A stretch of DNA of 30,134 nucleotides, taken from the IMG/VR virus record IMGVR_UViG_3300015206_000009, positions 1 to 30,134 of that record; one strand, 5' to 3'. Within the stretch, counting starts at the first letter, position 1, and each line of letters opens with the position of its first letter. Made by a program: the position numbers and the translations under genes. The DNA comes from a virus. This document shows, piece after piece, positions 656 through 27,438 of this stretch. The notes below the pieces were generated by a model that saw only the letters and a program-made list of their open reading frames with translations, ran no database searches and was not told the DNA's origin.

Positions 656-2267
656 GTTTAACTGGCGCGACCCCGATTACGCGGACGTGTACCGCAAGCG
701 TGCCTCCCGGCTCGCCAAGCTGCGCGCTGATCCTAAGCTACTTGCGCTCGTCAAAATGCACTACGCGCGCAATGCGGCGGAATTCATTGACGATTGGTCA
801 GTCACAGTCGACCCGCGCGTTAAGGGCCGCTCTCCTCTTATGCCGTTCTTGCTGTTTCCCCGTCAGGTCGAGGCCGTGCATTGGATCGACGAGCGCTACG
901 CACAGACCGACCCGAGCAAGGCGCCGGGCGTTATGGTTAAGAGCCGAGATGTCGGGGCTTCGTGGCTGTGCGCCGCTTGGGCCGCGACGAAATGCCTGTT
1001 TACATCACAGTTCCTGGTCGGCTTCGGCTCGGCGATCAAAGACAAGGTTGATAACGGCGGCGACCCCGACTCTATATTTTTCAAAATCCGCATGTTCCTT
1101 GAGTACCTGCCGCCCGAGTTCAAAGGCGGATGGGACATAAAGCGCGACTCGTCGGACATGCGGATCTTATTCCCGGCCACCGGATCGAGCATCATCGGCG
1201 CGTGCGGCGATACTATCGGGCGCGGCGGCCGTAAATCCGTGTGGTTTATCGATGAGTCGGCGCATTTGGAACACCCTGAGAAGGTCGACGCTAACCTCGT
1301 GGCCGCCGCGGATTGCCGCATTGACGTATCGTCGGTGAACGGCACGGCTAACCCTTTCGCTATCCTTGCGCGCTCGATCGACCCGGCGCAGCGGTTCGAT
1401 TTCTCATGGCGCGACGACCCACGCAAGGACGACGAATGGGCCGCCGCGAAGCAAAAGACGATCGACCCGAAGATCTGGAATCAGGAATATCTGTGCGACT
1501 TTAACGCCCTTGTCGACGGTATCATTATTTCGTCGGAAATGGTCGACGCGGCCATAGGACTGCACTTGCGGCGGCCGGACATTGACTTTAGCGGGCCTAG
1601 GCACAGCGCTTTCGATATTGCGGACCAGGGGCGCGACAAATGCGCGCTCGGCTCGCGGAGCGGCAATATCCTCGACTTTATGCAGTCGTGGTCCGGAACT
1701 GGCATGGATCTTGCAGAGTCGGTATCCCGTGCCGTGGCCCTCGTGGAGCAACGCGGCGGCAAGGAAATGATGTACGACGCGGATGGCATGGGCGCAAACG
1801 TGCGGGGCGATGTGCGCGTGATGGGTGAGATACGCAGAGAGAAAGACCCTCGATCGTTTAGCACGGTGCGCGTCGCGGCGTTCCGGGGGTCCGGCGCGGT
1901 GTTGTGGCCTGAGAAAAAAGCGGCACGCAGTGATATTAAAAACAAATTCATGTTCCAAAATTACAAGGCACAAGCCTGGTGGCACTTGGCCACGATGTTC
2001 GGTGAATCGCTCAAGGCGCACCGCGGCGAGGAATTCGACCCAGCGCTCGTCCTGAGCATCGACCCGAAATGCCCTGAGCTTGCGACGTTGCGCGACGAGT
2101 TGTCACAACCGAAATGGAAGTACATGACCACGGGGAAGCTCGTCGTCGATAAGACGCCCGAAGGGGCGCGTTCGCCGAACCTTGCCGATAGTTGCATGAT
2201 GTGCTTCTCCCCGCGGCGCGGCCCGCTCAATATCACGGACGGGACCATAGCGGCTATGGGCGGCTAG
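648..2267 (+). CDS. terL: Terminase large subunit (DNA-packaging ATPase/nuclease)
   Basis: 539 residues, the usual length for a phage TerL. TerL docks on the portal, pumps DNA into the prohead by ATP hydrolysis and cuts the concatemer. The Walker A region is a variant, KSRDVGAS (residues 98-105), rather than a canonical GxxGxGKT. Walker B is VWFIDE (198-203), followed by a coupling motif in SSVNGT (228-233). The nuclease half shows the first acidic site in AFDIADQGRDK (D323), a second in DADGMG (about 377-380), and a late LADS aspartate near the C-terminus. The ATG at 648 has no good Shine-Dalgarno, and a TAGTAT hexamer seven bases upstream raises the option of a leaderless message. The portal follows after 36 bp. 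No small terminase is recognisable in the window. Confidence 0.95.
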   Translation: MSQFNWRDPDYADVYRKRASRLAKLRADPKLLALVKMHYARNAAEFIDDWSVTVDPRVKGRSPLMPFLLFPRQVEAVHWIDERYAQTDPSKAPGVMVKSRDVGASWLCAAWAATKCLFTSQFLVGFGSAIKDKVDNGGDPDSIFFKIRMFLEYLPPEFKGGWDIKRDSSDMRILFPATGSSIIGACGDTIGRGGRKSVWFIDESAHLEHPEKVDANLVAAADCRIDVSSVNGTANPFAILARSIDPAQRFDFSWRDDPRKDDEWAAAKQKTIDPKIWNQEYLCDFNALVDGIIISSEMVDAAIGLHLRRPDIDFSGPRHSAFDIADQGRDKCALGSRSGNILDFMQSWSGTGMDLAESVSRAVALVEQRGGKEMMYDADGMGANVRGDVRVMGEIRREKDPRSFSTVRVAAFRGSGAVLWPEKKAARSDIKNKFMFQNYKAQAWWHLATMFGESLKAHRGEEFDPALVLSIDPKCPELATLRDELSQPKWKYMTTGKLVVDKTPEGARSPNLADSCMMCFSPRRGPLNITDGTIAAMGG

Positions 2268-2303: not shown

Positions 2304-4496
2304 GTGCTAAATTATCTCAAGTCATTGTTTCGTAAGCGTGCAGCGCCAGTTACGGCCGTTACTACCGTAATCCCCGGTACGCGCAAGCGGCTCGGGCTCG
2401 CCGCATTCTCCGAACTGATCAGCCAGATTAGCACCGCGTCTGACGTGACAATGCTCGACTTGCCGCGCGCGAAGTTCAAGGCGCCCGAGCTACCCGACGG
2501 CGTGCGACCGGCCAAAGCCCCCGCGGCAGGTTATATCCTCGCCATGGATTCGAGCGGCACGCAAGAGCGCGACGTGATGGCCCTCGACGACGTGGGCGGC
2601 TCGACAAGTGCCAGTTTTCTCAATACATCGCCATTCTTCGGCGAAGTGTCGCTCACGTTTCCCGGCTTTGCGTTCCTGTCCACGCTGCAACAGATTTCCG
2701 AGTTCCGCGCCCCATGCGAAGTGACGAGTACGGAAATGACCCGCGAGTGGATCAAAGTCGTATCCAAGGGCGGCGGCAAGGACCAGACTGACAAAATCAA
2801 GCAGATAACCGAGCGTATCGAGGAATTGAAACTGCAAGAGCGGTTTCAAACTGCGATGCTATATGACGCCCAATTCGGCGGCGCGTTCCTGTATTGGAAC
2901 TTTGCGGACGCCGATAAGGATAAGACCGACCAGGCGCGACAATTGCCGCAACTCGTCAGTCAGATCAAAAAAGGCTCGCTCGTATCGGTGACGGCGATCG
3001 AAGCGTACTGGGTCACGCCGTTCTCGTACAACGCTGACCGTCCCGAGAAAGACGATTTCTACGTCCCGCAATCATGGTTCGTCATGGGCCGCAAGACGCA
3101 TCTGTCGCGCTTAATGGTCGTCGTGTCGCGGCCGTTGCCGGACTTGCTTAAGCCGTCGTATAACTTCGTGGGCATATCGCTGGCGCAGCTTATGTTCCCG
3201 TATATTCAGCGCTGGCTGCGCACGGCGAAATCGGTCAATGACCTAATCAACGCATTCTCGATCGTCAACCTCAAGACGGACATGAACGCGACGCTGCAAG
3301 ACGACGGCGCCCTCGTGCAGCGTTTGAAGCTATTCACGGCGATGCGCGACAACAAAGGCGTGTTCGCCACGGACAAGGACAGCGAGGAATTAGAAATCCT
3401 AAACGTGACGCTCGGTACGCTCGATAAGCTGCAAGCGCAGGCGCAAGAGCATATGTCGGCGCCGTCGCATATCCCGCTGATTAAGCTATTCGGCGTGACG
3501 CCTACGGGATTGAACGCTACGGGCGAGGGTGAGATTAAAGTGTGGTACGACTGGGTAGCCGCGCAGCAAGCGCACGCGCTAGGCGACCACATGAACCGGG
3601 CACTGGAAATCGTGCAGATGGACCTGTTCGGCGCGGTCGACGATGACATAACGTACGAGTGGGTGCCGCTATTCCAGCCGACGCCTAAAGAACAGTCCGA
3701 ATTGAATAAAGCTGACGGTGACCGTGACGTAGCGTACATCACGGCCGGGGTTATCTCGCCAGACGAGGCGCGCGCCAAGCTTAAGGCGGACCCCACAAGC
3801 GGGTACGACGGGCTTACGGGCGATGCGCCCGAGCCGCCGCAGGAACTCGACGAGAATGGTAATCCCGTGGAAGGCGTCACACCCGGACCAGGCGACATGA
3901 GCGATGATGGAGACGAGCCAGACGGCGACATGTCGAGTTTCACGATGGACGGCAAATTTGAGGAAAACAAGCACCCTCGCGACAAAGGCGGCAAGTTCGG
4001 CTCGGGTAGCGGAGGCGCTGCGGACCCTCATACCGCAGCGGGCGGTGCAGTCACTAAGCAGTACACCGCGGGCGGCCCGGACGACCCCAGTAAAACGTCC
4101 ATGGTTGTCACGAAGGAATATCATTACGCAGGGCCGCCAGATGACGAGGGGCATAACGGCCCTGCCGGCAAGCTCGATCCTGCGAAGGTTAAGGCATCTC
4201 AAGAAGGAGCCGAGAAGGTCAATAAAATGATGTCCGGACATTACGAGCCGCAAGCCGCGAAAGAAGCCAGCGAGCATTCGCCGCGCGCCGCGCAGGGCGG
4301 AATGAGCAAGGCGCCATTCGTGAATGCATTTATGAAAGATCATAAAAACCGCGAAGACGATATGTCGCGCCTCAGTAAATTACCTGACGACAAGCTCAAG
4401 ACCGCGTTGCAATTGTTGACGAAAAATAAGGTTGACGACGAAGACGCTAAGTACATGAAAGAACTGATTCGCGACGTACTGGCCGCAAGTAAATAA
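2304..4496 (+). CDS. Portal protein, DUF1073/Phage_portal_3 type, with C-terminal extension
   Basis: 730 residues, starting at GTG 2304 behind AGGA (about 2293-2296). Residues about 70-500 resemble the DUF1073 (Phage_portal_3) portals: an N-terminal FFGEVSLTFPGFAFLSTLQQ segment, an LYDAQFGGAFLYW segment, and a C-terminal LIKLFGVTPTGLNATGEGE motif. The portal is the dodecameric vertex through which TerL packages DNA. Beyond about residue 500 is a Pro/Asp/Gly-rich linker, a HPRDKGGKFGSG motif (about 556-567), then a charged, Lys/Asp-rich region ending in a predicted helical segment (SRLSKLPDDKLKTALQLL). Typical portals of this class are about 450-500 residues, so roughly 200 residues are extra. 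The HPRD motif also occurs in the protease at 8997-9875. The function of the extension is unknown. Confidence 0.9.
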   Translation: MLNYLKSLFRKRAAPVTAVTTVIPGTRKRLGLAAFSELISQISTASDVTMLDLPRAKFKAPELPDGVRPAKAPAAGYILAMDSSGTQERDVMALDDVGGSTSASFLNTSPFFGEVSLTFPGFAFLSTLQQISEFRAPCEVTSTEMTREWIKVVSKGGGKDQTDKIKQITERIEELKLQERFQTAMLYDAQFGGAFLYWNFADADKDKTDQARQLPQLVSQIKKGSLVSVTAIEAYWVTPFSYNADRPEKDDFYVPQSWFVMGRKTHLSRLMVVVSRPLPDLLKPSYNFVGISLAQLMFPYIQRWLRTAKSVNDLINAFSIVNLKTDMNATLQDDGALVQRLKLFTAMRDNKGVFATDKDSEELEILNVTLGTLDKLQAQAQEHMSAPSHIPLIKLFGVTPTGLNATGEGEIKVWYDWVAAQQAHALGDHMNRALEIVQMDLFGAVDDDITYEWVPLFQPTPKEQSELNKADGDRDVAYITAGVISPDEARAKLKADPTSGYDGLTGDAPEPPQELDENGNPVEGVTPGPGDMSDDGDEPDGDMSSFTMDGKFEENKHPRDKGGKFGSGSGGAADPHTAAGGAVTKQYTAGGPDDPSKTSMVVTKEYHYAGPPDDEGHNGPAGKLDPAKVKASQEGAEKVNKMMSGHYEPQAAKEASEHSPRAAQGGMSKAPFVNAFMKDHKNREDDMSRLSKLPDDKLKTALQLLTKNKVDDEDAKYMKELIRDVLAASK

Positions 4497-4534: not shown

Positions 4535-4541
4535 GCGCGGC

Positions 4542-4793
4542 ATGGAACTTGCATTAATCGCCCTCACGTCGTTTAGCTACGTGTTTCTAAGGGCTTTCCA
4601 ACAACTCAATGTACAGTCATACTCCTACGCACTTGTTCTCCCTACTTCCATGTGTATGGCACTCGGGGACGTATTTCTAGTGACTAACTACGCACGCCAC
4701 GGCGTCGGCCTAGCACTCGTGATCGTCGTCGGTATCTCGTCGGGGGTCGGGTCAGTCTGTGCAATGTATATTCGTAAAAGGATGGTAAAATAA
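4542..4793 (+). CDS. Small integral membrane protein, unknown function
   Basis: 83 residues. Hydrophobic stretches cover about residues 2-18, 28-48 and 53-76, suggesting two or three transmembrane segments, with a short basic tail (IRKRMVK). The N-terminal sequence (SYVFLRAFQQLNVQ) resembles a conserved small phage membrane protein of unknown role. A holin is conceivable from size and topology, but no endolysin or spanin lies nearby. It has its own promoter-like sequence, and the ATG lies 8-11 bases after the -10 region without a ribosome binding site, so a leaderless transcript is possible. Its stop overlaps the next small membrane ORF (TAATG). Confidence 0.75.
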   Translation: MELALIALTSFSYVFLRAFQQLNVQSYSYALVLPTSMCMALGDVFLVTNYARHGVGLALVIVVGISSGVGSVCAMYIRKRMVK

Positions 4794-4882
4794 TGACTCT
4801 AGCCAATCTCGTGTGTTTCGTCGGCGCGTTCACGTGCCTGATTCTTTGTGCCTTAATTGCAGGTAATCCCCGTGGACGATAA
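4793..4882 (+). CDS. Tiny single-pass membrane peptide
   Basis: 29 residues (MTLANLVCFVGAFTCLILC...), almost entirely one hydrophobic helix followed by GNPRGR. The start overlaps the stop of the preceding membrane protein (TAATG), as in translational coupling, and GGATGG (4781-4786) can act as ribosome binding site. Its end overlaps the start region of the next ORF. The overlap and the clean hydrophobic profile argue that it is real; function is unknown. Confidence 0.5.
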   Translation: MTLANLVCFVGAFTCLILCALIAGNPRGR

Positions 4883-5048
4883 GAGACTCAAGCCCGAACA
4901 TTCGCCCACGTACACGCGCGCTGTCGAGCGGGCGGCCCGTGCGGTGCGTGAGATGCAGGCCGCGCCCCTCGAGGCGGGCAAGCCTACGTTTTTCCGCGGC
5001 GCGCGCGTAGTTGCGCGGGTCAAATCAAAACCAGTAACCGGAGAGTAA
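4872..5048 (+). CDS. Small basic hypothetical protein
   Basis: About 58 residues from GTG 4872 (first residues read as MDDKRLKPEH); the frame can be extended to a TTG at 4857. Neither start has a convincing Shine-Dalgarno. The protein is rich in Arg and Ala (RAVERAARAVREMQA) and ends in KSKPVTGE. No domain is recognised. It overlaps the preceding 29-residue membrane ORF and ends four bases before the next ATG, so it belongs to the same transcription unit. Confidence 0.5.
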   Translation: MDDKRLKPEHSPTYTRAVERAARAVREMQAAPLEAGKPTFFRGARVVARVKSKPVTGE

Positions 5049-5052
5049 TCAG

Positions 5053-5341: not shown

Positions 5342-6415
5342 ATGACGCGCACGCTTAAAGACTTCAAAAATTCTCACGATCCGGCGACAATCATTGCCGG
5401 GCTTCGCCGGGAGCTTGAGACGGCCCTCACGGTCGCCAGCACCGCCGAGGTACTGCGCGGATACATCGGGACTGCCAAGCTAGCCACGCAAGAGCTTGAC
5501 CTCCCACGATGGGTATATGAGCCAAAGAAGTCCAAGGCGCCGGGCGTGCCTAAGCTCATGTTGTCTGACCTGCACTGGGGCGAAATGGTGCGCTCGTCGC
5601 AGATTGGCGGCGTGAACTCTTACAACCTCGCCATCGCCCGCCGACGGCTGCAAACCGTGGTCGAAACGACGATTGCGCTTTGCAAGATCCTCGACCCGTC
5701 CATGTCATACCCGGGTATCGTCATCCCCCTCGGCGGCGATATGGTGAGTGGCAACATTCACGACGAACTTGCGGCCACGAACGAACTGAATACGATGCCC
5801 ACGGTGATGGACATCTATAAATGCCTCGTCGCCGCTATCACGCTTATGGCCGATACGTTCGGGCATGTGTTCTTACCTTGCGTCTCAGGGAACCACGATC
5901 GTGACACGAAAAAGATTTGGAGTAAGGATCGTAATCACACGTCGTTCGGGTGGTTGCTCTATCAATTTTTGGCCGCCCATTTCGAGAACGACAAGCGTAT
6001 TACGTTCTATATCCCGGACGGTTCGGACGCCCTTTATCGCATCTATGGAACGCGGTACCTACTTACGCACGGCGATCAGTTTCGAGGCGGTGACGGAATT
6101 ATTGGCCCTCTTGGGCCCGTCACGCGCGGCGAGCAAAAGAAAAACACTCGCAACGCGGCGGTCGGCAGCGACTATGACGTCATGGAATTTGGACATTTTC
6201 ACAAGAGGATGCTAACAGCCCGCTTGCGCGGCAACGGATCGCTAAAGGGGTACGACGAGTACGCAGCTGATAATAACTTTGGATTTGAACCCCCGTCGCA
6301 AAATTTTTGGATGACTCACCCTGACCACGGTATTACTTTTGACGCTCCTGTGTACGCAGATACGGCGACTAAAAAGGTTACTAAAACTCAATGGGTATCG
6401 GTGCCTAGTAAATGA
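5342..6415 (+). CDS. Calcineurin-like metallophosphoesterase
   Basis: 357 residues, ATG with GAGGA just upstream. All hallmark metal-binding motifs of the calcineurin-like phosphoesterase family are present in order: DLH (76-78), GGD (131-133), GNHD (183-186), THGD (242-245) and GHFH (284-287). These ligate a two-metal centre that hydrolyses phosphomono- or diesters; the true substrate (DNA end, nucleotide, cyclic nucleotide or protein) cannot be told from sequence. An N-terminal extension of about 65 residues carries the DFK..HDP motif shared with the preceding protein. The stop overlaps the next start (ATGA at 6412-6415), implying coupled translation with the nucleotide-hydrolase-like gene. 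Confidence 0.93.
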   Translation: MTRTLKDFKNSHDPATIIAGLRRELETALTVASTAEVLRGYIGTAKLATQELDLPRWVYEPKKSKAPGVPKLMLSDLHWGEMVRSSQIGGVNSYNLAIARRRLQTVVETTIALCKILDPSMSYPGIVIPLGGDMVSGNIHDELAATNELNTMPTVMDIYKCLVAAITLMADTFGHVFLPCVSGNHDRDTKKIWSKDRNHTSFGWLLYQFLAAHFENDKRITFYIPDGSDALYRIYGTRYLLTHGDQFRGGDGIIGPLGPVTRGEQKKNTRNAAVGSDYDVMEFGHFHKRMLTARLRGNGSLKGYDEYAADNNFGFEPPSQNFWMTHPDHGITFDAPVYADTATKKVTKTQWVSVPSK

Positions 6416-6960
6416 GCATTGAGGACCAGCTACGATATTGCGATCGGCACGGGCACAAATTCGAGACGACGGACGGCTGTCATTGGCGCCTATGCTTGAA
6501 TTGCGGCGCGGATGAAATGCTCGAACCGCCTGCGCGCGGCGTCGCGCCAGTCCCGGCCGCTACTGCGCAAGAGACAGGCGACCCCGCCGACTACACGGGC
6601 GGCCTGGACCCTCGCGTCGGATTGCCGACCGACAACGCACAGCGCAAGTCGCTCCCGATCTTTGACGGAGCAATTATGTATTTTCCATTGGCTCTGCTTG
6701 CCGTGGCCGAAGTCTCGCGCATCGGGAACGAGCAACACAACCCAGGCGAGCCGCTACACTGGGCGCGCGGTAAGTCGATGGACCAATTCAATACCGGACT
6801 GCGCCACACGATGGATCACGCCATGGGCGCGCGATACGATACGGACGGCGGGCGGCACTTAGCTAAAGCGGCATGGCGCGCACTGGCGGCCCTGCAATTG
6901 GATATCGAAGCGGAAGCGCTTGAGGCCGAGAGTGCGAGTCGCAGTCCCCCGGTCGCGTAA
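6412..6960 (+). CDS. dATP/dGTP diphosphohydrolase-like protein (DUF5664/MazZ type) with N-terminal zinc-ribbon-like motif
   Basis: 182 residues. The region 73-165 resembles the DUF5664 family, now named dATP/dGTP diphosphohydrolase: LPIFDGAIMYFPLALLAVAEV, then HNPGEPLHWARGKS, RHTMDHAMG, and DTDGGRHLAKAAWRALAAL. In characterised relatives of phages with modified DNA such enzymes remove the standard purine dNTP. The N-terminus carries C10-x2-H13 and C28-x2-C31, a possible metal ribbon not typical of the family. Start and stop overlap both neighbours (ATGA with the phosphoesterase; about 29 bases with the head gene). No PurZ or other base-modification gene is in the window, so a role in altered DNA is only a possibility. 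Confidence 0.7.
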   Translation: MSIEDQLRYCDRHGHKFETTDGCHWRLCLNCGADEMLEPPARGVAPVPAATAQETGDPADYTGGLDPRVGLPTDNAQRKSLPIFDGAIMYFPLALLAVAEVSRIGNEQHNPGEPLHWARGKSMDQFNTGLRHTMDHAMGARYDTDGGRHLAKAAWRALAALQLDIEAEALEAESASRSPPVA

Positions 6961-7762
6961 ACTCGTCACGGTTCGCCCGGTGCACGCGAATAGCGGCGTC
7001 CGCGAATGGTACGCCGCGCAGCTAATTGCACTCGTGGACGAGATGCACGACGACGTATCGACGGCCGTCCTAGAGACGTACGCGCCTCACGCGCCGAGCG
7101 AGCTTGCCCACGATGCCCCGCGCAAGCGACCTGAGACGATGCTCAAGCGGGCGCTCAAGAAATGGGGCGACATGTGGACGCGCAAACTCGACGGGCTGTC
7201 GCTCGACCTGTCGCGCAAGTTCGCCCGTAAAAACTTCACTGTAACGCAAACGGCCATGAAGGCCGCGTTTCGTGAGGCGGGGTTTACCGTCGCGTTCAAG
7301 CCGAGCCCGGCGAGCGTCACGGCGTACCAGGCCGTAGCGGCCGAGCAAGTCAACCTGATTAAGTCGATCCCGGCGCAGTATCTTAAGTCGGTGCAATCGA
7401 GCGTATGGACTTCGGTGATGAAGGGCGGCGACCTGCACTCGCTGTCGCAGGACCTCGCGAAGAATTACGATGTCACGAAGAAGCGTGCCGCACTGATTGC
7501 AAGGGATCAGAACAACAAAGCGACCGGCGTAATCGAAAAAGTGCGCCAGATGGAGCTAGGGATCACGGACGCTTTTTGGCAACATAGCCACGGGGGAAAA
7601 GTTCCGAGGCCCACGCATCTCGCCGCGGACGGTCGCCGGTATAAAATCGCGCTCGGCATGTGGGATCCGGACGCGAACGGAAAGGGTAAAGGCGCGTTCG
7701 TGCAGCCGGGGTTCCTTATAAATTGTCGCTGTACGAACCGACCGATTTTGCCATTTTTATAG
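6932..7762 (+). CDS. Head morphogenesis protein, Mu gpF / SPP1 gp7 family
   Basis: 276 residues from GTG 6932, chosen because GAGG (6921-6924) is suitably spaced; the frame can be extended to TTG 6920. The C-terminal third is characteristic of the SPP1 gp7/Mu gpF minor head family: LIARDQNNKATGVIEKVRQ, AFWQHSHGGKVPRPTHLA, and a final PGFLINCRCTNRPIL with the conserved Cys pair. These proteins attach to the portal and help early prohead assembly or DNA ejection. The N-terminal part is basic and helical. It overlaps the preceding gene and is followed by a 45-residue ORF. Confidence 0.9.
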   Translation: MRVAVPRSRKLVTVRPVHANSGVREWYAAQLIALVDEMHDDVSTAVLETYAPHAPSELAHDAPRKRPETMLKRALKKWGDMWTRKLDGLSLDLSRKFARKNFTVTQTAMKAAFREAGFTVAFKPSPASVTAYQAVAAEQVNLIKSIPAQYLKSVQSSVWTSVMKGGDLHSLSQDLAKNYDVTKKRAALIARDQNNKATGVIEKVRQMELGITDAFWQHSHGGKVPRPTHLAADGRRYKIALGMWDPDANGKGKGAFVQPGFLINCRCTNRPILPFL

Positions 7763-7775
7763 GAGATTGCGACAC

Positions 7776-7913
7776 ATGGAAACTTCACTTAGCGTAAGCG
7801 ATTGGCTGGACGTATTAAAGTCTCAGTGCCGCTGGCAACTGTACGTCGAGACATTGGCGGCGATGCGAGACGCAGTTGATAAAATGGACGATGAGAGAGC
7901 TTGTAAGTTATGA
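7776..7913 (+). CDS. Small acidic hypothetical protein (45 aa)
   Basis: ATG 7776 follows a good Shine-Dalgarno, AGGAG (7761-7765), which overlaps the stop of the head gene. The product starts METSLSVSDWLDVLKSQC and ends in DKMDDERACKL. It is compact and amphipathic, without a known domain. The strong ribosome binding site supports it. A 13-codon frame (7910-7951) overlaps its stop through ATGA and is probably not meaningful. Confidence 0.5.
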   Translation: METSLSVSDWLDVLKSQCRWQLYVETLAAMRDAVDKMDDERACKL

Positions 7914-7962
7914 ATTGGATGGCCGCGATTGACGCCCTATTGAAACCGTGACGCACGTCCCG

Positions 7963-7990
7963 TTGACCGCGCGGTCAGTTTGAGTATAAT
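7963..7990 (+). promoter_or_regulatory. Strong sigma-70 promoter with 14-bp palindromic operator in the -35
   Basis: TTGACC (7963-7968), a 16-bp spacer and a perfect TATAAT (7985-7990). The perfect palindrome TGACCGCGCGGTCA (7964-7977) covers the -35 and the start of the spacer, so a protein bound there would block RNA polymerase. It lies directly upstream of the helix-turn-helix gene, which suggests autoregulation. The predicted transcription start falls near an in-frame ATG at 7998. Confidence 0.8.
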
Positions 7991-8036
7991 GCGGGGTATG
8001 GACACTATATACCTAGAACCGAGTGAGGATTTCCTA

Positions 8037-8927
8037 ATGTCAAACGATGTAGTTTTTAAAGCACCCAAGTTCCTACCGATGCCCGGCGAGTTAACACCCG
8101 AGGCGACGCGTGAGGCGTTGCTACCCGCGAAGATTAACGCGATGAGTCGCGCTATCGCAGCGGCGCAGTCATTGCCGGAACTGATGAATTACAAAAAGCC
8201 TATCGACGGGCTGGCGGCGGCAGCTAAAACGCTCAAGGAATTCCCCGAGTATGCACGGTCGATGAAACGTGTACAAAAGGAAACGCTCGAAAGAATGGGA
8301 CAATTGCTGTTAGCATATAAATCAGCTTGGAGTACCGGGATCGCTAACCTTTTGCCTCCTAAACTTACGCAAGAACAAGCTATTGAAGCTCGCAGGCGCC
8401 ACGCGGCAGGGGAGACCGCTGCGTCGATTGCAAATTTTTTTGGCGTCTCCGGGGACGTAATACGTCGTGTGATCAGACACCCGAATTATGGAAAAGTGGG
8501 AAGACAGGCTGAGGCGTCAGAACGTACGCAGGCTGCTAAGGCGGCAGGTATACCCGTTGAGACCGCGACGCATGCGGTTCGATTCGCGTCGGCGCCTAAA
8601 CCTCTCAGGGAGAAGATTATCGCGAACGACCGCATATCTAGTTCTATCAACATAATGGCGTCGTTCACTCCTAAATTGGGTAAAAACGGTGGCGGCAATA
8701 AGCACAGTGATGCAGCGGCCATACTTTTTCATGGTGTAGATAGAAGCGCTCCAAGTTTCTCAGGTCGTGCCGGTAGGAATGGGCTAACCCACATTTCAGC
8801 GTGCGTAAGAGCCTTAAATATTTCCGTTATCTCTCAACTCACGACGGAGGAAAAGCAACGCGCCAAAAAACTCATAGTAGAGATGCAAGAAATTCTCGAC
8901 GAAATGGATAGGAGATTAGGACTATGA
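8037..8927 (+). CDS. Helix-turn-helix DNA-binding protein, likely regulator
   Basis: 296 residues from ATG 8037, chosen for the GTGAGGA Shine-Dalgarno at about 8022-8028; the frame also offers ATG 7998 next to the predicted transcription start. The N-terminal half has KPIDGLAAAAKTLKEFPEYA and RVQKETLERMGQLLLAYK, a helical pattern seen in phage and ParB-associated proteins. At about residues 112-150 lies a resolvase/homeodomain-like helix-turn-helix, EQAIEARRRHAAGE then TAASIANFFGVSGDVIRRVI. The C-terminus ends in a charged helix (KKLIVEMQEILDEMDRRL) that could dimerise. It interrupts an otherwise structural run and has its own palindrome-bearing promoter, like a moron gene. Its sequence looks locally more AT-rich than the flanking head genes. 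Its targets are unknown. Confidence 0.75.
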   Translation: MSNDVVFKAPKFLPMPGELTPEATREALLPAKINAMSRAIAAAQSLPELMNYKKPIDGLAAAAKTLKEFPEYARSMKRVQKETLERMGQLLLAYKSAWSTGIANLLPPKLTQEQAIEARRRHAAGETAASIANFFGVSGDVIRRVIRHPNYGKVGRQAEASERTQAAKAAGIPVETATHAVRFASAPKPLREKIIANDRISSSINIMASFTPKLGKNGGGNKHSDAAAILFHGVDRSAPSFSGRAGRNGLTHISACVRALNISVISQLTTEEKQRAKKLIVEMQEILDEMDRRLGL

Positions 8928-9880: not shown

Positions 9881-10129
9881 GTGGAGAACTTCAACTCCAC
9901 GCAAACGCCCGACCCGCGTCCCGGCAATTATTACGTTACCGCGCGTAAAGGCGAGTTTTACGTGTTGCTGCGTGGGCCATTCCCGGCGCACGCCGATGCG
10001 CTCGCGGCGGTACGCGAGACAATGCTCAAGGCTTGCGATCTCGACCCGCGCGGACACTGGTACGAATACGGCACGGCGCGCATGAACGAGTACCAGCCCG
10101 ACATAGGAAAGCTAAACTCGTATTTCTAG
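9881..10129 (+). CDS. Conserved small hypothetical protein
   Basis: 82 residues from GTG 9881, with no clear Shine-Dalgarno. The sequence includes NYYVTARKGEFYVLLRGPF, AHADALAAVRETMLKACDL and HWYEYGTARMN. It resembles a conserved small family in phages and plasmids of proteobacteria in which a YYV...LLGPF strand precedes an AHADALAAV helix; function is unknown. It sits between the protease and scaffold genes and is followed by the first sigma-54-like promoter. Confidence 0.7.
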   Translation: MENFNSTQTPDPRPGNYYVTARKGEFYVLLRGPFPAHADALAAVRETMLKACDLDPRGHWYEYGTARMNEYQPDIGKLNSYF

Positions 10130-10137
10130 CCGCACCG

Positions 10138-10155
10138 CGTGCCTTATATGGCACG
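10138..10155. other. Inverted repeat CGTGCC-N6-GGCACG covering the -24 element
   Basis: CGTGCC (10138-10143) and GGCACG (10150-10155) are perfect complements around TTATAT. The right arm is the -24 half of the sigma-54-like promoter. It could be a hairpin ending upstream transcription or a protein site that competes with sigma-54. A shorter TGCCTTGGCA inverted repeat overlaps the second such promoter at 16111-16120. Confidence 0.4.
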
Positions 10156-10165
10156 GGAGTTGCAT
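10149..10165 (+). promoter_or_regulatory. Sigma-54 (RpoN) promoter before scaffold and capsid genes
   Basis: TGGCACG (10149-10155), GGAG, TTGCAT (10160-10165) matches the known RpoN -24/-12 consensus TGGCACG-N4-TTGCW with invariant GG and GC at correct spacing. The expected start is near 10174, about 50 bases before the scaffold ATG. It lies in one of the few intergenic gaps. Confidence 0.75.
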
Positions 10166-10197
10166 AGCCTCGCGGAACTAGATAGTATTGCCGGAAC

Positions 10198-10213
10198 TGT
10201 GACGCGCGTCACA
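10198..10213. promoter_or_regulatory. Perfect 16-bp palindrome TGTGACGCGCGTCACA
   Basis: TGTGA-N6-TCACA, symmetrical across all 16 bases, lies between the sigma-54-like promoter and the scaffold start. Compare 640-655 and 16139-16154. It could be a CRP/FNR-like operator, a phage regulator site, or an RNA hairpin at the ribosome binding site. Confidence 0.55.
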
Positions 10214-10227
10214 CTCCGAGTACCAAT

Positions 10228-10917
10228 ATGAAAATTTCCGCCCTCGTCGCCTCCCTCGCTCCGTTCATGGCAAAAGATGCCAAGATGGAAGACGTACTGG
10301 CCGCCGTGAACGTATCGCTTGCCGCTGACAAGAAAGCGCGCGACGAAGCGAACGGCGCCGCCGAGGACAAAGCGGCGATGGACAAAGCCGCCAAGGACGC
10401 GGGCTACGAAGACGCGGAAGACAAGGCTGCGTGCGACAAGGCGGCCAAGGACGCAGGCTGCGACCCCAAGGATATGGTAAAGGGCAAGGACGGCAATTGG
10501 GGTTTAGGCTCCAAGGACGGCCTGCACCAGAACGCCAAGGATCAAAGCGGCGAGCTCGACGACGATATCGACGCCAGCGACGCAACTCCCGGCAAGCCCG
10601 TCGACGGCACTGCCGCCGCGCTGGACGCCGCTGTGAAATTGGCTGTTGACGCGGCCATTACCGCCGAGCGCGCCCTTGCGGCCGCCCGAGAGGAAGTCAA
10701 GCCGCTACTCGGCAACGTGACCACATTCGACAGTGCGGACGCCGTGTACGGTGCCGCGCTCGATCATCTGAAAATCGACCATAAGGGCGTCCACGCTTCG
10801 GCGTTGCGCTCGATCTACCAGGCGGCCACGAAGCAAGCCCCGGCCCTCGCCGCGGACGCGAAGTCCGTCAAGACTATGGACGAAGCATTCCCCCATCTTA
10901 ACCGGCTCCGTCGGTAA
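10228..10917 (+). CDS. Scaffold-like protein (homologous to the C-terminal part of DUF2213 fusion proteins)
   Basis: 229 residues, acidic and very rich in Ala, Lys and Asp, as expected for an internal scaffold that is removed during maturation. The N-terminus (LVASLAPFMAKDAKMEDVLAA) and C-terminus (EVKPLLGNVTTFDSADAVYG, GVHASALRSIYQAATKQ) look like the region after the protease domain in longer DUF2213 proteins of other phages. The middle has two similar copies of DKAAxDKAAKDAG (about residues 51-80) and then a PKDMVKGKDGNWGLGSKDG segment. There is no strong Shine-Dalgarno; a perfect palindrome ends 14 bases before the ATG. It is the first gene after the sigma-54-like promoter, followed by cement and capsid genes. 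Confidence 0.75.
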   Translation: MKISALVASLAPFMAKDAKMEDVLAAVNVSLAADKKARDEANGAAEDKAAMDKAAKDAGYEDAEDKAACDKAAKDAGCDPKDMVKGKDGNWGLGSKDGLHQNAKDQSGELDDDIDASDATPGKPVDGTAAALDAAVKLAVDAAITAERALAAAREEVKPLLGNVTTFDSADAVYGAALDHLKIDHKGVHASALRSIYQAATKQAPALAADAKSVKTMDEAFPHLNRLRR

Positions 10918-11920: not shown

Positions 11921-12946
11921 ATGAAAATCGCATTAGACCAAGCCCGCCTCGCCGAACAGTACGGCATCGTGTACATGCCCGGGCTTGACGCCAGGGGACC
12001 TTTGGACCTGAAATTCATGGACACCGAAATGTCCATGGATGCGCAGCCTCAGCTTGTGACCGCCGCAAACGCGGGCATCCTGAGCTTGTTCACGACCTAC
12101 GTCGACCCGAAATTGATCACCGTGCAAGTCGCGCCGACCAAGGCCGCCGAACTGTACGGCGAGACAAAGTATGGCGATTGGGTCACGGACACCGCGGCAT
12201 TCCCCGTGGTCGAGCGTACCGGCACGACGACCGCGTATGGCGACTACAACGAAGGCGGCGTGTCAGGGTTCAACGTGATCTGGCCGCAGCGTCAGAGTTT
12301 CCATTACCAGATTTTCACTCGATGGGGCGAGCGTGAATTGGCGCGCGCCGCGAAGGCCCGCATTGATTGGGCGAATGGCGTGAACATGGGCGCAGCCCTC
12401 GCCATGCGCAAATTCGAGAACCTGTCGTACCTGTTCGGTATCGCAGGCTTGCAGAACTTCGGCGGTATCAATGACCCGCAGTTGCCCCCGGCGCTGGCCG
12501 TCACTCAGTCGTGGCTGACCGCGACCGACCCGACGATCATCTACGGCGATGTCCTACGCATGGTGCAGCAAGCCGTTGTGCAGTCTCAGGGTTTGCTCAA
12601 TGCGGACAGTGCGTTCACCTTGGGAATCAGCCCGGGTAACGCGATGAATTTCGGCAAGACGAACTCGTTCGGCCTTACCGTGTATTTCATGATCAAGGAA
12701 AACTTCAGGAACCTGAAGATTGTCACGATTCCTGAGTTCTCCACGGCGTCGGCGTCGGGCACTGAGTTGATTCAGTTGATTCCGGCGGAAGTCGAAGGCA
12801 CTCCGGTCGTCTCGAGCGCGTTCACTGAGAAGCAGCGCGCGCACGCGATGATCACCTTGGACAGTTCGTGGCGCCAGAAAAAGTCCTCGGGGACTTGGGG
12901 TACCATTTACTACCAGCCCGCATACGTCGTCTCGATGCACTTCTAA
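11921..12946 (+). CDS. Major capsid protein (DUF2184 family)
   Basis: 341 residues. The sequence follows the DUF2184 major capsid pattern: an N-terminal arm, AANAGILSLFTTYVDPKLI, PTKAAELYGETKYGDWVT, NEGGVSGFNVIWPQRQSFHY, a long helix ELARAAKARIDWANGVNMG, and C-terminal KQRAHAMITLDSSWRQKK. These proteins adopt the HK97 fold and build the icosahedral shell. Its place directly after scaffold and cement genes agrees. No N-terminal delta domain is obvious beyond about 50 residues. Expected to be the most abundant head product and within reach of the sigma-54-like promoter at 10149. Confidence 0.93.
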   Translation: MKIALDQARLAEQYGIVYMPGLDARGPLDLKFMDTEMSMDAQPQLVTAANAGILSLFTTYVDPKLITVQVAPTKAAELYGETKYGDWVTDTAAFPVVERTGTTTAYGDYNEGGVSGFNVIWPQRQSFHYQIFTRWGERELARAAKARIDWANGVNMGAALAMRKFENLSYLFGIAGLQNFGGINDPQLPPALAVTQSWLTATDPTIIYGDVLRMVQQAVVQSQGLLNADSAFTLGISPGNAMNFGKTNSFGLTVYFMIKENFRNLKIVTIPEFSTASASGTELIQLIPAEVEGTPVVSSAFTEKQRAHAMITLDSSWRQKKSSGTWGTIYYQPAYVVSMHF

Positions 12947-14450: not shown

Positions 14451-14927
14451 GTGGCCAGCACGACCGTCACGGGAGGTGAGAAACTCCAAGCGTACCTCAC
14501 GACTCTAGCCGCGCGGGCGGCGAGCGGCGGCGCGGTAAAGGTCGGATTTCTTGAAGGCGCCCGGTATTCCGATACGCATCCTATCCGCGGCACGGCGCGC
14601 AAGCCTCTACCTGTTGCGCTTGTGGCATTCTGGCAAGAATTCGGCACGAAGCGCGCTCCAGCGCGGCCGTTCTTTCGCACTACGATCGCGCAGAAATCCG
14701 GCGAGTGGGGGGCGATATTCGCTAAGGCGCTCCCGTATTATCAGATGGACGGAGCAAAGGCGCTCGCCGCACTCGGTACTGTAATGCAAAGCGACATTCG
14801 CGCATCTATAGTAACCTGGTCGTCGCCTCCCAATTCGCCGCGCACCGTGGCGATCAAGGGCTTCAATAAGCCGCTGGTCGATGACGGCACAATGCAGCGA
14901 ACGGTCAACTACCAGGTGATGAGCTAA
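14451..14927 (+). CDS. HK97 gp10-like tail completion/neck protein
   Basis: 158 residues from GTG 14451, directly after the preceding stop; the frame can also start at GTG 14421 or 14406 inside the previous gene, and none has a strong ribosome binding site. The product shows the HK97 gp10-like signature: VKVGFLEGARY, VALVAFWQEFGTKRAPARPF, then SDIRASIVTWSSPPNSPRTV and a C-terminal KGFNKPLVDDGTMQRTVNY. Such proteins join the head to the tail or cap the tail end. Neck genes follow. Confidence 0.8.
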   Translation: MASTTVTGGEKLQAYLTTLAARAASGGAVKVGFLEGARYSDTHPIRGTARKPLPVALVAFWQEFGTKRAPARPFFRTTIAQKSGEWGAIFAKALPYYQMDGAKALAALGTVMQSDIRASIVTWSSPPNSPRTVAIKGFNKPLVDDGTMQRTVNYQVMS

Positions 14928-15547: not shown

Positions 15548-16078
15548 ATGTCCTTTACCGTAACCCCCACAATCGATCAAGTCTACGCCGCTGTCGTGAC
15601 GTTTATCCTCGGGATAATCCCTCTCGACTCCGAGCATGTGATTAAGGGCAATCAGAACCGTATTTCCACGCCGACCGGCCCGTACGCTATTTTGAACATC
15701 ATAAGTCAAAAGCGCATCCACACGAACCAGGACACTTGGGACACGACCATACCGGACCCGTCAGGCATCGTGCGCGAGCAAGGCATAAAGCTGGAAATGC
15801 AGGTGGATCTATACGGGCCGCTATCGGGCGATTGGGCGTCGATCTTTTCCACGATGTTCCGCGATGATTACGCGGTACAGATCCTCGCGCCGAACTGCGC
15901 GCCGCTGTACGCCGACGACCCGACCCGCGCGCCGCTTATAACGGCCGAGGCGCAATACTTGGACCGTTGGATTGTACGTGCTCAATTGCAGTACTCCCCT
16001 ACAGTACAAACAACCGACGAATTTTCAGACAGTATAAATATTAGCGTGATTGACGCTACGACCCACTACGGGCCGTAG
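15548..16078 (+). CDS. Tail/neck terminator protein
   Basis: 176 residues from ATG 15548. The frame extends upstream into the preceding gene but this ATG directly follows its stop. It carries FILGIIPLDSEHVIKGNQNR, YAILNIISQKRIHTN, REQGIKLEMQVDLYGPLSGD and WIVRAQLQYSPTVQ, matching the phage neck terminator family that caps the tail tube and receives the head. It is the last gene before the second sigma-54-like promoter, so it probably ends the head/neck transcription unit. Confidence 0.8.
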   Translation: MSFTVTPTIDQVYAAVVTFILGIIPLDSEHVIKGNQNRISTPTGPYAILNIISQKRIHTNQDTWDTTIPDPSGIVREQGIKLEMQVDLYGPLSGDWASIFSTMFRDDYAVQILAPNCAPLYADDPTRAPLITAEAQYLDRWIVRAQLQYSPTVQTTDEFSDSINISVIDATTHYGP

Positions 16079-16079
16079 T

Positions 16080-16105
16080 ACCGGCCGGGACTGGGGTCCG
16101 CCGGT
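16080..16105 (+). terminator. Stem-loop after the neck genes, possible terminator
   Basis: ACCGGC (16080-16085) pairs with GCCGGT (16100-16105), and inside it GGAC (16088-16091) pairs with GTCC (16096-16099) around TGGG. The stem is strong with a small bulge. Only CCCCTTGCCTT follows, not a T-run, so it would be an imperfect intrinsic terminator. It starts two bases after the stop of the terminator gene. Confidence 0.4.
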
Positions 16106-16115
16106 CCCCTTGCCT

Positions 16116-16132
16116 TGGCACGACTGTTGCAT
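16116..16132 (+). promoter_or_regulatory. Sigma-54 (RpoN) promoter before the tail genes
   Basis: TGGCACG (16116-16122), ACTG, TTGCAT (16127-16132) is a full match to the RpoN -24/-12 consensus and identical to the 10149 site at every non-spacer base. Expected start near 16141, about 65 bases before the tail sheath gene. Confidence 0.78.
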
Positions 16133-16138
16133 GTAGAC

Positions 16139-16154
16139 TGTGAGCTAGTTCACG
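16139..16154. promoter_or_regulatory. TGTGA-N6-TCACG palindrome at the predicted tail transcription start
   Basis: TGTGAGCTAGTTCACG is one base short of the TGTGA-N6-TCACA form at 640-655 and 10198-10213. It lies at about -2 to +13 of the predicted sigma-54 start, where a bound protein would repress. Confidence 0.45.
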
Positions 16155-16206
16155 CTTCGGCCAGGGCGTTTCGTGGCGCCGTTCACAGTTTTGGAATAAA
16201 TACCCC

Positions 16207-17724
16207 ATGTCAAACAGTATCCCGGCCTCGCAATTAATTTCTGTTCAACCGGGTGTATTGGGCACTGGCGGGAGTCCCCTCAGCCTCAACGGCGTGATTC
16301 TCGACAATTCCGCCTTGGGCGTGCAAATTCCGATTGGACAAGTTCTCGCGTTCCCAACGGCCACTGCGGTGCAAAATTTCTTCGGTGCGAACTCGCCCGA
16401 GGCTCTTGCGGCAAATATCTATTTCGCGGGCTTTATCGGGGCGGGTACGATCCCCGGTAACCTATTCTTCGCTCAGTACAATACGGCGGCTGTCGCCGGA
16501 TATGTGCGCGGCGCCTCGCTCGCGGCGTCCTCGCTGACGGCGATTCAAGCTCTTTCCGGTACGCTCACGCTGTCGATTAATGGCGTCTCGACCGTCTCGG
16601 CGGCAATCAACCTCGCCAGCGCGACCAGTTTCAGTAACGCCGCAGCGCTGATTCAAACAGGTATCCAGGCGGGAGCTCCCACGAATACCGCGACCGTCGC
16701 ATTTAATGCGCAATTGAGCGCGTTCGTCATTACGTCGCCCACGACCGGCGCGGCCAGTACTATGACTGTTGCCACTGTGAGCACGCTGGCGACCGGCCTC
16801 GGACTTACCGCGGCGGCGGGCGCCGTCGTTTCTCCGGGCGCGGCAATCGCGGTTCCCGCCACGCTCATGGCGACGATTACCAGTCAGACGCAAAACTGGT
16901 TTAAGTTCACCACATTGGTCGAACCGGTCATCGCGGTCAAACAAGCGTTCGCAGCGTGGGTGCAGACCACGAACGACACGTACGCATACGTCGCGTCTGA
17001 CTCGGACATTACGCCTACGCAGTCGACCAATGCCGCGACTTCGTTCGGCAATATCGTCAAAGCGGCGAATATGGACGGCGTGATCGCGATTTACGATCCG
17101 AACGCCAGCGGCTTGAATTTCTTCAATCTCGGCGCAACCGCGTCGATCAATCCGAATCAGGTCAAAGGCAATACCTCGTTCGCGTATCTCTCTCAGGCCG
17201 GACTCGTGCCGAGCGTGACGGACGCGACCACGGCAAACAACCTGATCGCGAATGGATACAATTTCTACGGCGCGTACGCGACGGCGAACCAGGCTTTCCA
17301 GTTCTACCAGACCGGCTTTATAGCGGGTCAGTGGGGCACCGATCAGCGGTACACGAACCAGCGCATTATTAATGCGGCCCTGCAATTGGCCGTGCTGACG
17401 TTCCGCGCCAGTGTGAAGTCCCTCCCGTACACCCAGGCAGGATACAACGGGATTCGCTCGGCGTGCCTTGGGCCGATTCGACAAAACCTCTCTTTCGGCT
17501 CGATCAACCCCGGTGTGGTATTGAGCCCGTCGCAAGCGGCCGCGGTAAACATCGCAGCCGGAACGAAGATCGATCAGACACTTTCAACGGACGGCTGGTA
17601 CCTGCAAATTCTCGATCCCGGTTCCGTGGTTCGCGGACAGGGCGGATCGCCCAATATCACGTTTTGGTACACCGACGGCGGAAGCATCCGCACAATCAAT
17701 ATCTCGAGCATCGACGTAGAGTAA
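16207..17724 (+). CDS. Tail sheath protein (DUF3383 family)
   Basis: 505 residues. It begins MSNSIPASQLISVQPGVLG and has GVILDNSALGVQIPIGQVLA, AANIYFAGFIGAGTIPGNLF, TNDTYAYVASDSDITPTQST, AGFNFYGAYAT-like NGYNFYGAYATANQAFQFYQ, GQWGTDQRYTNQRIINAALQ and a C-terminal DPGSVVRGQGGSPNITFWYT. These match the DUF3383 contractile sheath family. The sheath surrounds the tube and contracts to drive it through the cell envelope, so this gene identifies a myovirus. It is the first gene after the second sigma-54-like promoter and heads the tail operon. Confidence 0.93.
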   Translation: MSNSIPASQLISVQPGVLGTGGSPLSLNGVILDNSALGVQIPIGQVLAFPTATAVQNFFGANSPEALAANIYFAGFIGAGTIPGNLFFAQYNTAAVAGYVRGASLAASSLTAIQALSGTLTLSINGVSTVSAAINLASATSFSNAAALIQTGIQAGAPTNTATVAFNAQLSAFVITSPTTGAASTMTVATVSTLATGLGLTAAAGAVVSPGAAIAVPATLMATITSQTQNWFKFTTLVEPVIAVKQAFAAWVQTTNDTYAYVASDSDITPTQSTNAATSFGNIVKAANMDGVIAIYDPNASGLNFFNLGATASINPNQVKGNTSFAYLSQAGLVPSVTDATTANNLIANGYNFYGAYATANQAFQFYQTGFIAGQWGTDQRYTNQRIINAALQLAVLTFRASVKSLPYTQAGYNGIRSACLGPIRQNLSFGSINPGVVLSPSQAAAVNIAAGTKIDQTLSTDGWYLQILDPGSVVRGQGGSPNITFWYTDGGSIRTINISSIDVE

Positions 17725-21022: not shown

Positions 21023-21352
21023 ATGCTACAGGTACCTCTCGCCGCAGTTCCATCGCAGCAACTCTCGATCACGCTCGACGGTCAGAACTGCCTGATAGCC
21101 GTGTACCAAAAGACCACGGGATTATATTTTGATATGCAATTCAACGGTGTGCCTTTTACCTCGACAGTGCGCTGTCTCAATCGGGCGCGACTGTGCGAGG
21201 ACCGGCAGTACCTCGGCTTCGTGGGCGACTTTCTTTTTTTCGACACTCAAGGCGACTCAGACCCGACGTTTGATGGGTTAGACGGCCGGTATATGCTGGT
21301 ATACCTACAAGCGGCGGATATTGCGGCAATCGTGGCGGCTGGTCTCACATGA
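21023..21352 (+). CDS. Baseplate plug protein
   Basis: 109 residues. The compact sequence with SQQLSITLDGQNCLIAVYQK, GLYFDMQFNGVPFTSTVRCL and FLFFDTQGDSDPTFDGLDGR matches the phage baseplate plug family (former DUF6983). It follows the Dit-like gene and overlaps the hub gene start (ATGA, 21349-21352), so the three are translationally linked. Confidence 0.85.
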   Translation: MLQVPLAAVPSQQLSITLDGQNCLIAVYQKTTGLYFDMQFNGVPFTSTVRCLNRARLCEDRQYLGFVGDFLFFDTQGDSDPTFDGLDGRYMLVYLQAADIAAIVAAGLT

Positions 21353-25582: not shown

Positions 25583-26701
25583 ATGTCAGGCGCTCCCACT
25601 CCGCAAATTCTACTTGAGCCGATCGCCTCGGACGCAACGTCTGGATTTATTACCAGCCCGATACCCGACGCACCTACAGGTACGGTCGCGGCCAGTGTGC
25701 AACAAGGGTTTCCTCCTATCACGATGACAAGCGAACTTGCCGGGGGCTTGCCGCCTCTCGGGCAGGACATGAACGGGTTTCTAAACTTGCTCAGCGGGCA
25801 CACGTTTTTCTTACAGTGTGGACAGCCTTACCCATTCAATGCCGCTTTAGCCGCGGCAATCGGCGGGTACGCTAAAGGCGCAATCCTAGGCTCTGTCCCG
25901 GACGCGGGCGGCGCGGCATTGTGGCTAAACACGGTAGCGGGAAACACGTCAAACCCTGATACGACGACTAACACAGGGTGGGCTCCGTTGGCAGCAAACG
26001 GAGTGACCGGAGTCACTGCATTGACGGGGGGTACGCTAACCCTCACCGGGGCGCAGTCGAAATACCCAGTAATTGTCCTCTCAGGCACCCTGACATCAAA
26101 TTTGACCGTGAACCTGCCGGCTGGAGCGTCGCAACGATGGCTGTTCGTGAATGCCACGATAGGCGCGTTTGCCATGTCTGTGCAGACCCCTTCGAACCTC
26201 GCAAGTGTGGCCGTACCGCAAGGCGGGTTCGCCTCACCCACGGGTGTATACGGGATCGGCGACGGCAACATTTACCCAAGTGTCGCGCCGTTATCAGTGC
26301 CTATCTCGCAAGCTCCCTCCCCCCTGTCGCTCGTAGAGCGTACGAATACCGGTGCCGTACTCGCGACGGTGTTTAATAGCAGTGAGGCGGCAACGAATCC
26401 GGCGATTACAAACGTGTACGTGGACGACGGTACAGGTAATTTGCTCAAGATATCGTTGGCCAATCTCGTAGCGCAATTGCCGGCGCAAGGCTTACCGCAG
26501 ATCCGTGCGGCGCAGGCGTCGATGGTGAATGGGGCTAATCGGGTCAATTTTGCGACGCCGTTCCCCGCGTCATGCGTTTCCGTCGCGTTGACTCCTAACG
26601 GAGCTACTGCGACGTTCGCCGTCACGGCGTTCGACCGGTTCGGTTTTAACGCGAACGTCGGCGTAACCGAATCGTATACGTATATCGCGGCGGGGAATTA
26701 G
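25583..26701 (+). CDS. Tail fibre-like protein A
   Basis: 372 residues. The N-terminal part has GTVAASVQQGFPPITMTSEL, GGLPPLGQDMNGFLNLLSGH, AALAAAIGGYAKGAILG and NTSNPDTTTNTGWAPLAANG, a baseplate-attachment module repeated in the next protein. The middle (TGVTALTGGTLTLTGAQSK) and C-terminal part (VNGANRVNFATPFPASCVSV) are Thr/Ala-rich beta fibre sequence. The C-terminal segment resembles the terminal domain of H-type tail fibres. It probably forms part of the receptor-binding apparatus. Confidence 0.8.
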   Translation: MSGAPTPQILLEPIASDATSGFITSPIPDAPTGTVAASVQQGFPPITMTSELAGGLPPLGQDMNGFLNLLSGHTFFLQCGQPYPFNAALAAAIGGYAKGAILGSVPDAGGAALWLNTVAGNTSNPDTTTNTGWAPLAANGVTGVTALTGGTLTLTGAQSKYPVIVLSGTLTSNLTVNLPAGASQRWLFVNATIGAFAMSVQTPSNLASVAVPQGGFASPTGVYGIGDGNIYPSVAPLSVPISQAPSPLSLVERTNTGAVLATVFNSSEAATNPAITNVYVDDGTGNLLKISLANLVAQLPAQGLPQIRAAQASMVNGANRVNFATPFPASCVSVALTPNGATATFAVTAFDRFGFNANVGVTESYTYIAAGN

Positions 26702-26703
26702 CT

Positions 26704-27438
26704 ATGTCTGGCGTCACGATCGTATACAAAATCACGGAACTGTTCGCAAAGAACGCGACAGCCGCGACAATAAATTTACCCGTTCCGAATGCGACGCCCG
26801 GGCCGTCGGCGCCTAACCTCGCCTCATTCGACACGGGATTCCCAGTGATCAATTTCCAGCCGATTACCGCAGGCGGCGTACCCCCGAGCGGCAAGGATAT
26901 CAACGGCCTATTCTACATGATGTCGCAATACGGGCTGTCAATGCAGGCCGGGCAAGCTATCCTTATGTACGACGCGGCCACGCAAGCCGCAATCGGAGGC
27001 TATGCGGCTAACGCGCTATTGACTAAAGCGTCAGGCTTCGGCTACTGGTTAAATTTTATCGCGGGTAACATGAGTAATCCTGACACGGGCGGTACGGGCT
27101 GGTCCTCACTGACGCCTGATCCCGTAGGCGCGTTGCAATTGGGCGTCGCGGCCGGAACATACAATAATTACTCGCCGGCAGGGTTCGACGGGTCAATAGG
27201 ATTTCTCGACATCACGCCTAGCGGCGCAGTGATTATCACAGGGGTCGCAGCGGGCGAGGACGGGCAGTACCTCGTGATAACCAATCTATCAGGCTCTCAG
27301 ACTGTCACGCTGGACAGCTTAAACAGCGGATCGCTCGCGCAAAATCAGCTACGCTTGCCGGGTAATATCGTGCTGGTGCAAAATAACGGTATCACATTGC
27401 GATACTCAAAATTCTTAGGCTTGTGGGTGCTTGCATGA
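26704..27438 (+). CDS. Tail fibre-like protein B, paralogue of protein A
   Basis: 244 residues. Residues about 40-140 (GFPVINFQPITAGGVPPSG, KDINGLFYMMSQYGLSMQAG, AATQAAIGGYAANALL and NMSNPDTGGTGWSSL) align with the N-terminal module of the preceding protein. The C-terminal part has FLDITPSGAVIITGVAAGED, YLVITNLSGSQTVTLDSL and QNNGITLRYSKFLGLWVLA, a typical small beta domain. It overlaps the start of the next, longer fibre gene by ATGA (27435-27438). The pair likely makes baseplate-proximal fibre segments. Confidence 0.78.
   Translation: MSGVTIVYKITELFAKNATAATINLPVPNATPGPSAPNLASFDTGFPVINFQPITAGGVPPSGKDINGLFYMMSQYGLSMQAGQAILMYDAATQAAIGGYAANALLTKASGFGYWLNFIAGNMSNPDTGGTGWSSLTPDPVGALQLGVAAGTYNNYSPAGFDGSIGFLDITPSGAVIITGVAAGEDGQYLVITNLSGSQTVTLDSLNSGSLAQNQLRLPGNIVLVQNNGITLRYSKFLGLWVLA

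Follow-up and report, generated by a model that had tools for sequence, protein, structure and literature searches.

Two identical sigma-54-type promoter motifs precede the scaffold-like and tail sheath genes of an uncultured contractile-tailed phage

The window, by which we mean the whole 30,134-nt stretch of viral DNA analysed here, takes in the left-hand and structural portion of the genome of a contractile-tailed phage, with genes for terminase, portal, head morphogenesis, protease, a scaffold-like protein, major capsid protein, connectors, sheath, tape measure, baseplate and fibres. Three genes, all on the plus strand, matter most for what follows: the scaffold-like gene (10228-10917), whose match is to the C-terminal half of a protease family, phrog_2229; the major capsid protein gene (11921-12946; phrog_264, 4e-58); and the tail sheath gene (16207-17724; phrog_205, 6e-69). 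A scaffold role for the first of these is suggested by the fused protease-scaffold arrangement in the nearest relative, an IMG/VR contig described below (L003/G001). Exonuclease-like, dATP/dGTP diphosphohydrolase-N-like and HNH-endonuclease-like genes are interspersed among the head genes (5342-8927), and two neighbouring tail-fibre genes at 25583-27438 have similar N-terminal parts, as expected of paralogues, and are also paired in the nearest relative. No Rfam family matched the window at E-values up to 1.

Bacterial -24/-12 promoters follow the consensus TGGCAYR-N4-TTGCW. The window holds two exact matches to TGGCACG-N4-TTGCAT, namely TGGCACGGGAGTTGCAT at 10149-10165, 5' of the scaffold-like gene (promoter 1), and TGGCACGACTGTTGCAT at 16116-16132, 5' of the tail sheath gene (promoter 2), the latter being the second identical copy picked out in an earlier, sequence-only reading of this DNA. 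Scanning both strands of the whole window returned these two plus-strand, intergenic copies and no other exact match, while the reversed control pattern gave none; the expectation is approximately 0.0008 exact matches per window, or 3e-5 in its 1,114 non-coding bases. Each copy has GG at -25/-24 and GC at -13/-12 with 10 bases between them, and so falls within the bacterial consensus. Each also lies outside coding sequence at a promoter-like distance upstream of a gene: the predicted start of promoter 1 is at approximately 10175, giving a leader of about 53 nt, and that of promoter 2 at approximately 16142, giving a leader of about 65 nt.

When the window was scored with a profile built from -24/-12 sites of other phages, promoter 2 gave the best value in the window (24.0) and promoter 1 scored 19.9. 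A third, near-consensus site, TGGCATGGATCTTGCA (about 1699-1715, plus strand; score 22.0), lies inside the terminase gene, and a weak one, CGGCATGGAACTTGCAT (about 4537-4554, plus strand; 14.9), overlaps the start codon of a holin-like ORF; it is doubtful that either is functional. Below these four, no site in the window scored higher than 8.7. Scatter of the motif inside genes, which would speak against a promoter role, thus amounts to the one near-consensus site in the terminase gene and counts weakly.

The two copies are identical at 13 of 13 sigma-54 consensus positions, whereas agreement drops to 1 of 4 bases in the spacer, 11 of 40 upstream and 21 of 60 downstream. Retention of the consensus bases between divergent flanks argues for selection on the positions contacted by sigma-54 and against a copied block; a mobile element or a recent duplication was rejected on the same ground, the differing flanks and spacers.

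Promoter 1 sits in a gap of 98 nt (10130-10227) between an ORF at 9881-10129 and the scaffold-like gene, and promoter 2 in a gap of 128 nt (16079-16206). The earlier description of these as the only sizeable gaps of the morphogenesis region holds from about 10 kb onward; further left there are gaps of 259 nt (4794-5052) and 217 nt (7763-7979). The copies had also been placed at the heads of the head and tail units. This is correct for the sheath, but promoter 1 heads the scaffold/major-capsid part rather than the whole head unit, as the terminase, portal, head-morphogenesis and protease genes all lie upstream of it. The start ATG of the tail sheath gene is identical in relatives, which counts against the gaps being coding, and recoding of TAG, which could make them so, is ruled out by the normal use of TAA, TAG and TGA. 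A GC-rich hairpin at 16060-16115 was considered as a terminator before promoter 2 and rejected: it folds no better than shuffled sequences (z -0.62) and lacks a clear T-run.

The nearest relative, at 54 kb, is collinear with the window through the structural region, and its best-matching proteins are 72-82% identical; searches with the scaffold and portal found no closer one. Sheath and capsid matches in cultured phages, which include a Helicobacter pametensis prophage and phages of Aeromonas, Klebsiella, Pseudomonas, Burkholderia and Acinetobacter, are all below 60% identity. Both promoter-bearing gaps are missing from the nearest relative. Its sheath gene starts 5 nt past the preceding gene, and the same junction measures -24 to +19 nt in nearly all relatives, thus leaving few bases at most where the window has 128 nt; the exceptions are L040 and L041 (79 nt) and L017 and L058 (larger or unaligned). 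Protease and scaffold form one ORF in the nearest relative and are separated in the window by ORF 9881-10129 and the 98-nt gap. A relative of this 82-aa ORF is located elsewhere in the nearest relative's contig (69% identity), indicating that the protease-scaffold gene was split, with the ORF at the break. No exact or near-exact -24/-12 site was found at the corresponding places in the closest or the more distant relatives, which leaves this phage as the only one with the arrangement. Since the gaps are specific to it, spacer DNA has been gained at two points, with the same perfect promoter motif in each.

Both leaders also carry a candidate operator. The sole perfect 16-bp palindrome in the window, TGTGACGCGCGTCACA (10198-10213), is an exact TGTGA-N6-TCACA centred at about +30 of promoter 1, and a near-palindrome with one mismatch, TGTGAGCTAGTTCACG (16139-16154), is centred at about +5 of promoter 2; this unequal distance counts against the explanation favoured below. 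A further site of this type, TGTGAACTATGTCACA (640-655), lies before or at the terminase start. With up to two mismatches, TGTGA-N6-TCACA occurs 17 times in the window against 7.2 expected, a number reached in none of 100 shuffles. The core GTGA-N6-TCAC occurs at 641, 10199, 16140 and 26003, against an expectation of 0.33 (none of 300 simulations reached four), and three of these four sites stand at the head of a gene, namely those for terminase, scaffold and sheath. The nearest relative's contig has it 28 nt ahead of the terminase ORF and, on the opposite strand, 59 nt ahead of a helicase gene; one more copy falls in the gap that follows a third gene, at 14586, and another within a gene. Given this recurrence at gene heads in both phages, the palindrome probably serves this phage family as an operator and predates the two sigma-54 promoters. 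A second common element, similar to TGACCG-N(2-3)-CGGTC, lies upstream of the palindrome before the terminase gene in both phages and also precedes it at the helicase gene of the relative (580-660 in the window; near 21317 and 53653 in the relative's contig).

The position of a palindrome over a predicted start suggests repression. Its half-sites are identical to those of the CRP-type site TGTGA-N6-TCACA, exactly so at 10198, and, judged by sequence, a phage-encoded regulator and a CRP protein are equally possible binders. In E. coli, inhibition of the sigma-54 promoter Pu by CRP-cAMP has been reported (PMC3900584).

Similar motifs were sought across IMG/VR with the pattern TTGGCACG-N4-TTGCAT and its reversal as a control, comparing clustering and intergenic placement rather than raw counts. 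Among the matches listed, 43 of 89 for the target pattern had a second degenerate copy within 300 bp, compared with 0 of 80 for the control, and 51 of 89 lay outside ORFs of at least 100 aa, compared with 1 of 80. A neighbour set of 116 distinct copies, with up to three mismatches anywhere, shows GG and GC to be essentially invariant, although the set was seeded from the consensus and its fixed positions are partly guaranteed. The seeding does not guarantee the freedom seen elsewhere: C and T in equal proportion, followed mostly by G or A, and A or T after TTGC. The spacer is free. Together, the clustering, placement and pattern of variation support the presence of real sigma-54 sites in phage genomes, and the two sites of the window are among the best scorers on the profile of the 116 copies.

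In the loci of this survey (L086-L170) the sites form intergenic -24/-12 arrays that are either tandem, at intervals of 26-28 or 47 bp, or divergent, with 42 bp between the members of a pair; examples are L097 (10194-10434), L106 (1457-1610), L129 (6537-6750) and L166 (1513-2210). These arrays mostly precede small genes of unknown function, whereas the window has a pair before scaffold and sheath. In the unrelated contigs L086-L090, GTGA-N6-TCAC is found beside many -24/-12 sites, with its centre typically at -0.5 to +10.5 of the predicted start. At least 28 such palindromes lie within 100 bp of a -24/-12 site in the target loci, against one or two expected from background density, a count to be read with the knowledge that L086-L091 were picked for having one such pair each. 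Few or no such motifs occur in cultured phages whose proteins are related to the motif-flanking ones of two IMG/VR contigs.

To fire, sigma-54 promoters need an activator that is driven by ATP and linked to signals of nutrient state or stress. We consider it highly probable that the two sites are promoters for host RpoN that boost the scaffold and major capsid genes and the sheath and tube genes, respectively, and we strongly infer the use of sigma-54 itself at both. The coordinated RpoN-dependent control of head and tail genes proposed in the sequence-only reading is thus well supported by the sequence, short of proof. Host sigma-54 (RpoN) holoenzyme, assumed to be present in the host, would sit waiting at both promoters, which would fire once a host enhancer-binding protein became active in the infected cell. 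Promoter 1 would then yield scaffold and major capsid transcripts and promoter 2 those for the sheath and following tail genes, most likely as late structural-gene transcripts that supplement those reading through from upstream. Both promoters may also be held down by a common regulator, probably a repressor, bound to the TGTGA-N6-TCACA-type operator at or just after the start. Both sigma-54 and the activator would be supplied by the host, as neither sigma-54 nor its activator domain (PF00158) was found in the nearest relative's contig or in 29 motif-bearing records, where a host activator would be invisible. In the window, itself a genome fragment, neither an activator gene nor, upstream of the promoters, an enhancer-like site was found.

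Three other explanations were weighed. It is unlikely, in our estimation, that a different DNA-binding protein, such as a phage regulator, recognises the 13-base motif, which would then merely resemble a sigma-54 site. The regular spacing of the arrays in other phages (26-28 or 47 bp) could be that of operators or iterons, and 30 such contigs encode no sigma-54 activator; on the other hand, the positions that vary among copies are those that the sigma-54 consensus leaves free, the motif is non-palindromic, and in the window each leader has a single motif at a promoter-like distance from its gene. Ordinary sigma-70 promoters are a very improbable reading. By eye, TTGCAT of copy 1 and TAGTAT 17 bases downstream (10160-10188) make a loose fit to -35 and -10 boxes, but the equivalent -10 position of copy 2 reads TCACGC, a consensus scan found no sigma-70-type site near either copy, and TGGCACG would stay unexplained. 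Chance matches or non-functional relics are scarcely credible: the motifs are conserved in no sequenced relative, as such an origin would have it, but chance falls far short of explaining a pair of perfect matches, in divergent surroundings, in phage-specific spacers that total 226 nt.

If host sigma-54 does drive these promoters, placing capsid and sheath under its control would couple virion output to host physiology. A broader proposition, for which we see the chances as evenly balanced, is that host sigma-54 is a widely used and largely unrecognised transcription channel of uncultured phages, acting at intergenic -24/-12 promoters that are often in arrays and repeatedly coupled to operators. 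On this proposition, such phages would use sigma-54 without encoding it or its activators, and the lineage of the window would use it to boost scaffold/capsid and sheath expression. The IMG/VR survey suggests that the strategy may be common in phages yet to be cultured, and we see the occurrence of sigma-54-type sites across uncultured phages as the aspect that most merits further work.

The sequence-only reading knew of no described phage strategy in which morphogenesis genes depend on RpoN, but one has been described. For Pseudomonas phage YuA (NC_010116, Yuavirus), GenBank annotates three experimental, high-activity -24/-12 promoters in the structural region: one directly before scaffold (38392-38570), one at 40888-41035 and one ahead of a tail gene (47152-47312). 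The phage is reported to need host sigma-54 strictly for its development, and phage use of this factor to be rare, though not unprecedented (PMC5053324). YuA is the only cultured example of sigma-54 control of virion genes that we found. As in the window, several -24/-12 promoters stand before head and tail structural genes, but YuA is a siphovirus with another gene set, and the contractile-tailed phage of the window is unrelated to it. The YuA promoters are far from consensus, with no exact TGGCACG-N4-TTGC, whereas the window copies are perfect; nor were any GTGA-N6-TCAC palindromes found in the 50 kb of YuA examined, compared with four in the window. A P22-like podovirus in IMG/VR (L112) carries a pair of identical -24/-12 motifs, at 3294-3309 and 6651-6666 in reverse-complement coordinates. 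One follows the terminase gene and precedes a 104-aa ORF, portal and scaffold; the second lies between scaffold and the major capsid gene. Bacterial -24/-12 promoters share the core, spacing and degeneracy of those in the window, which differ in lying on a phage and before virion genes. Sigma-54 promoters at phage virion genes were therefore already known from YuA, and the window adds a new, unrelated contractile-tailed example with perfect motifs, the third phage type, after YuA and the podovirus, in which sigma-54-type promoters stand at virion genes.
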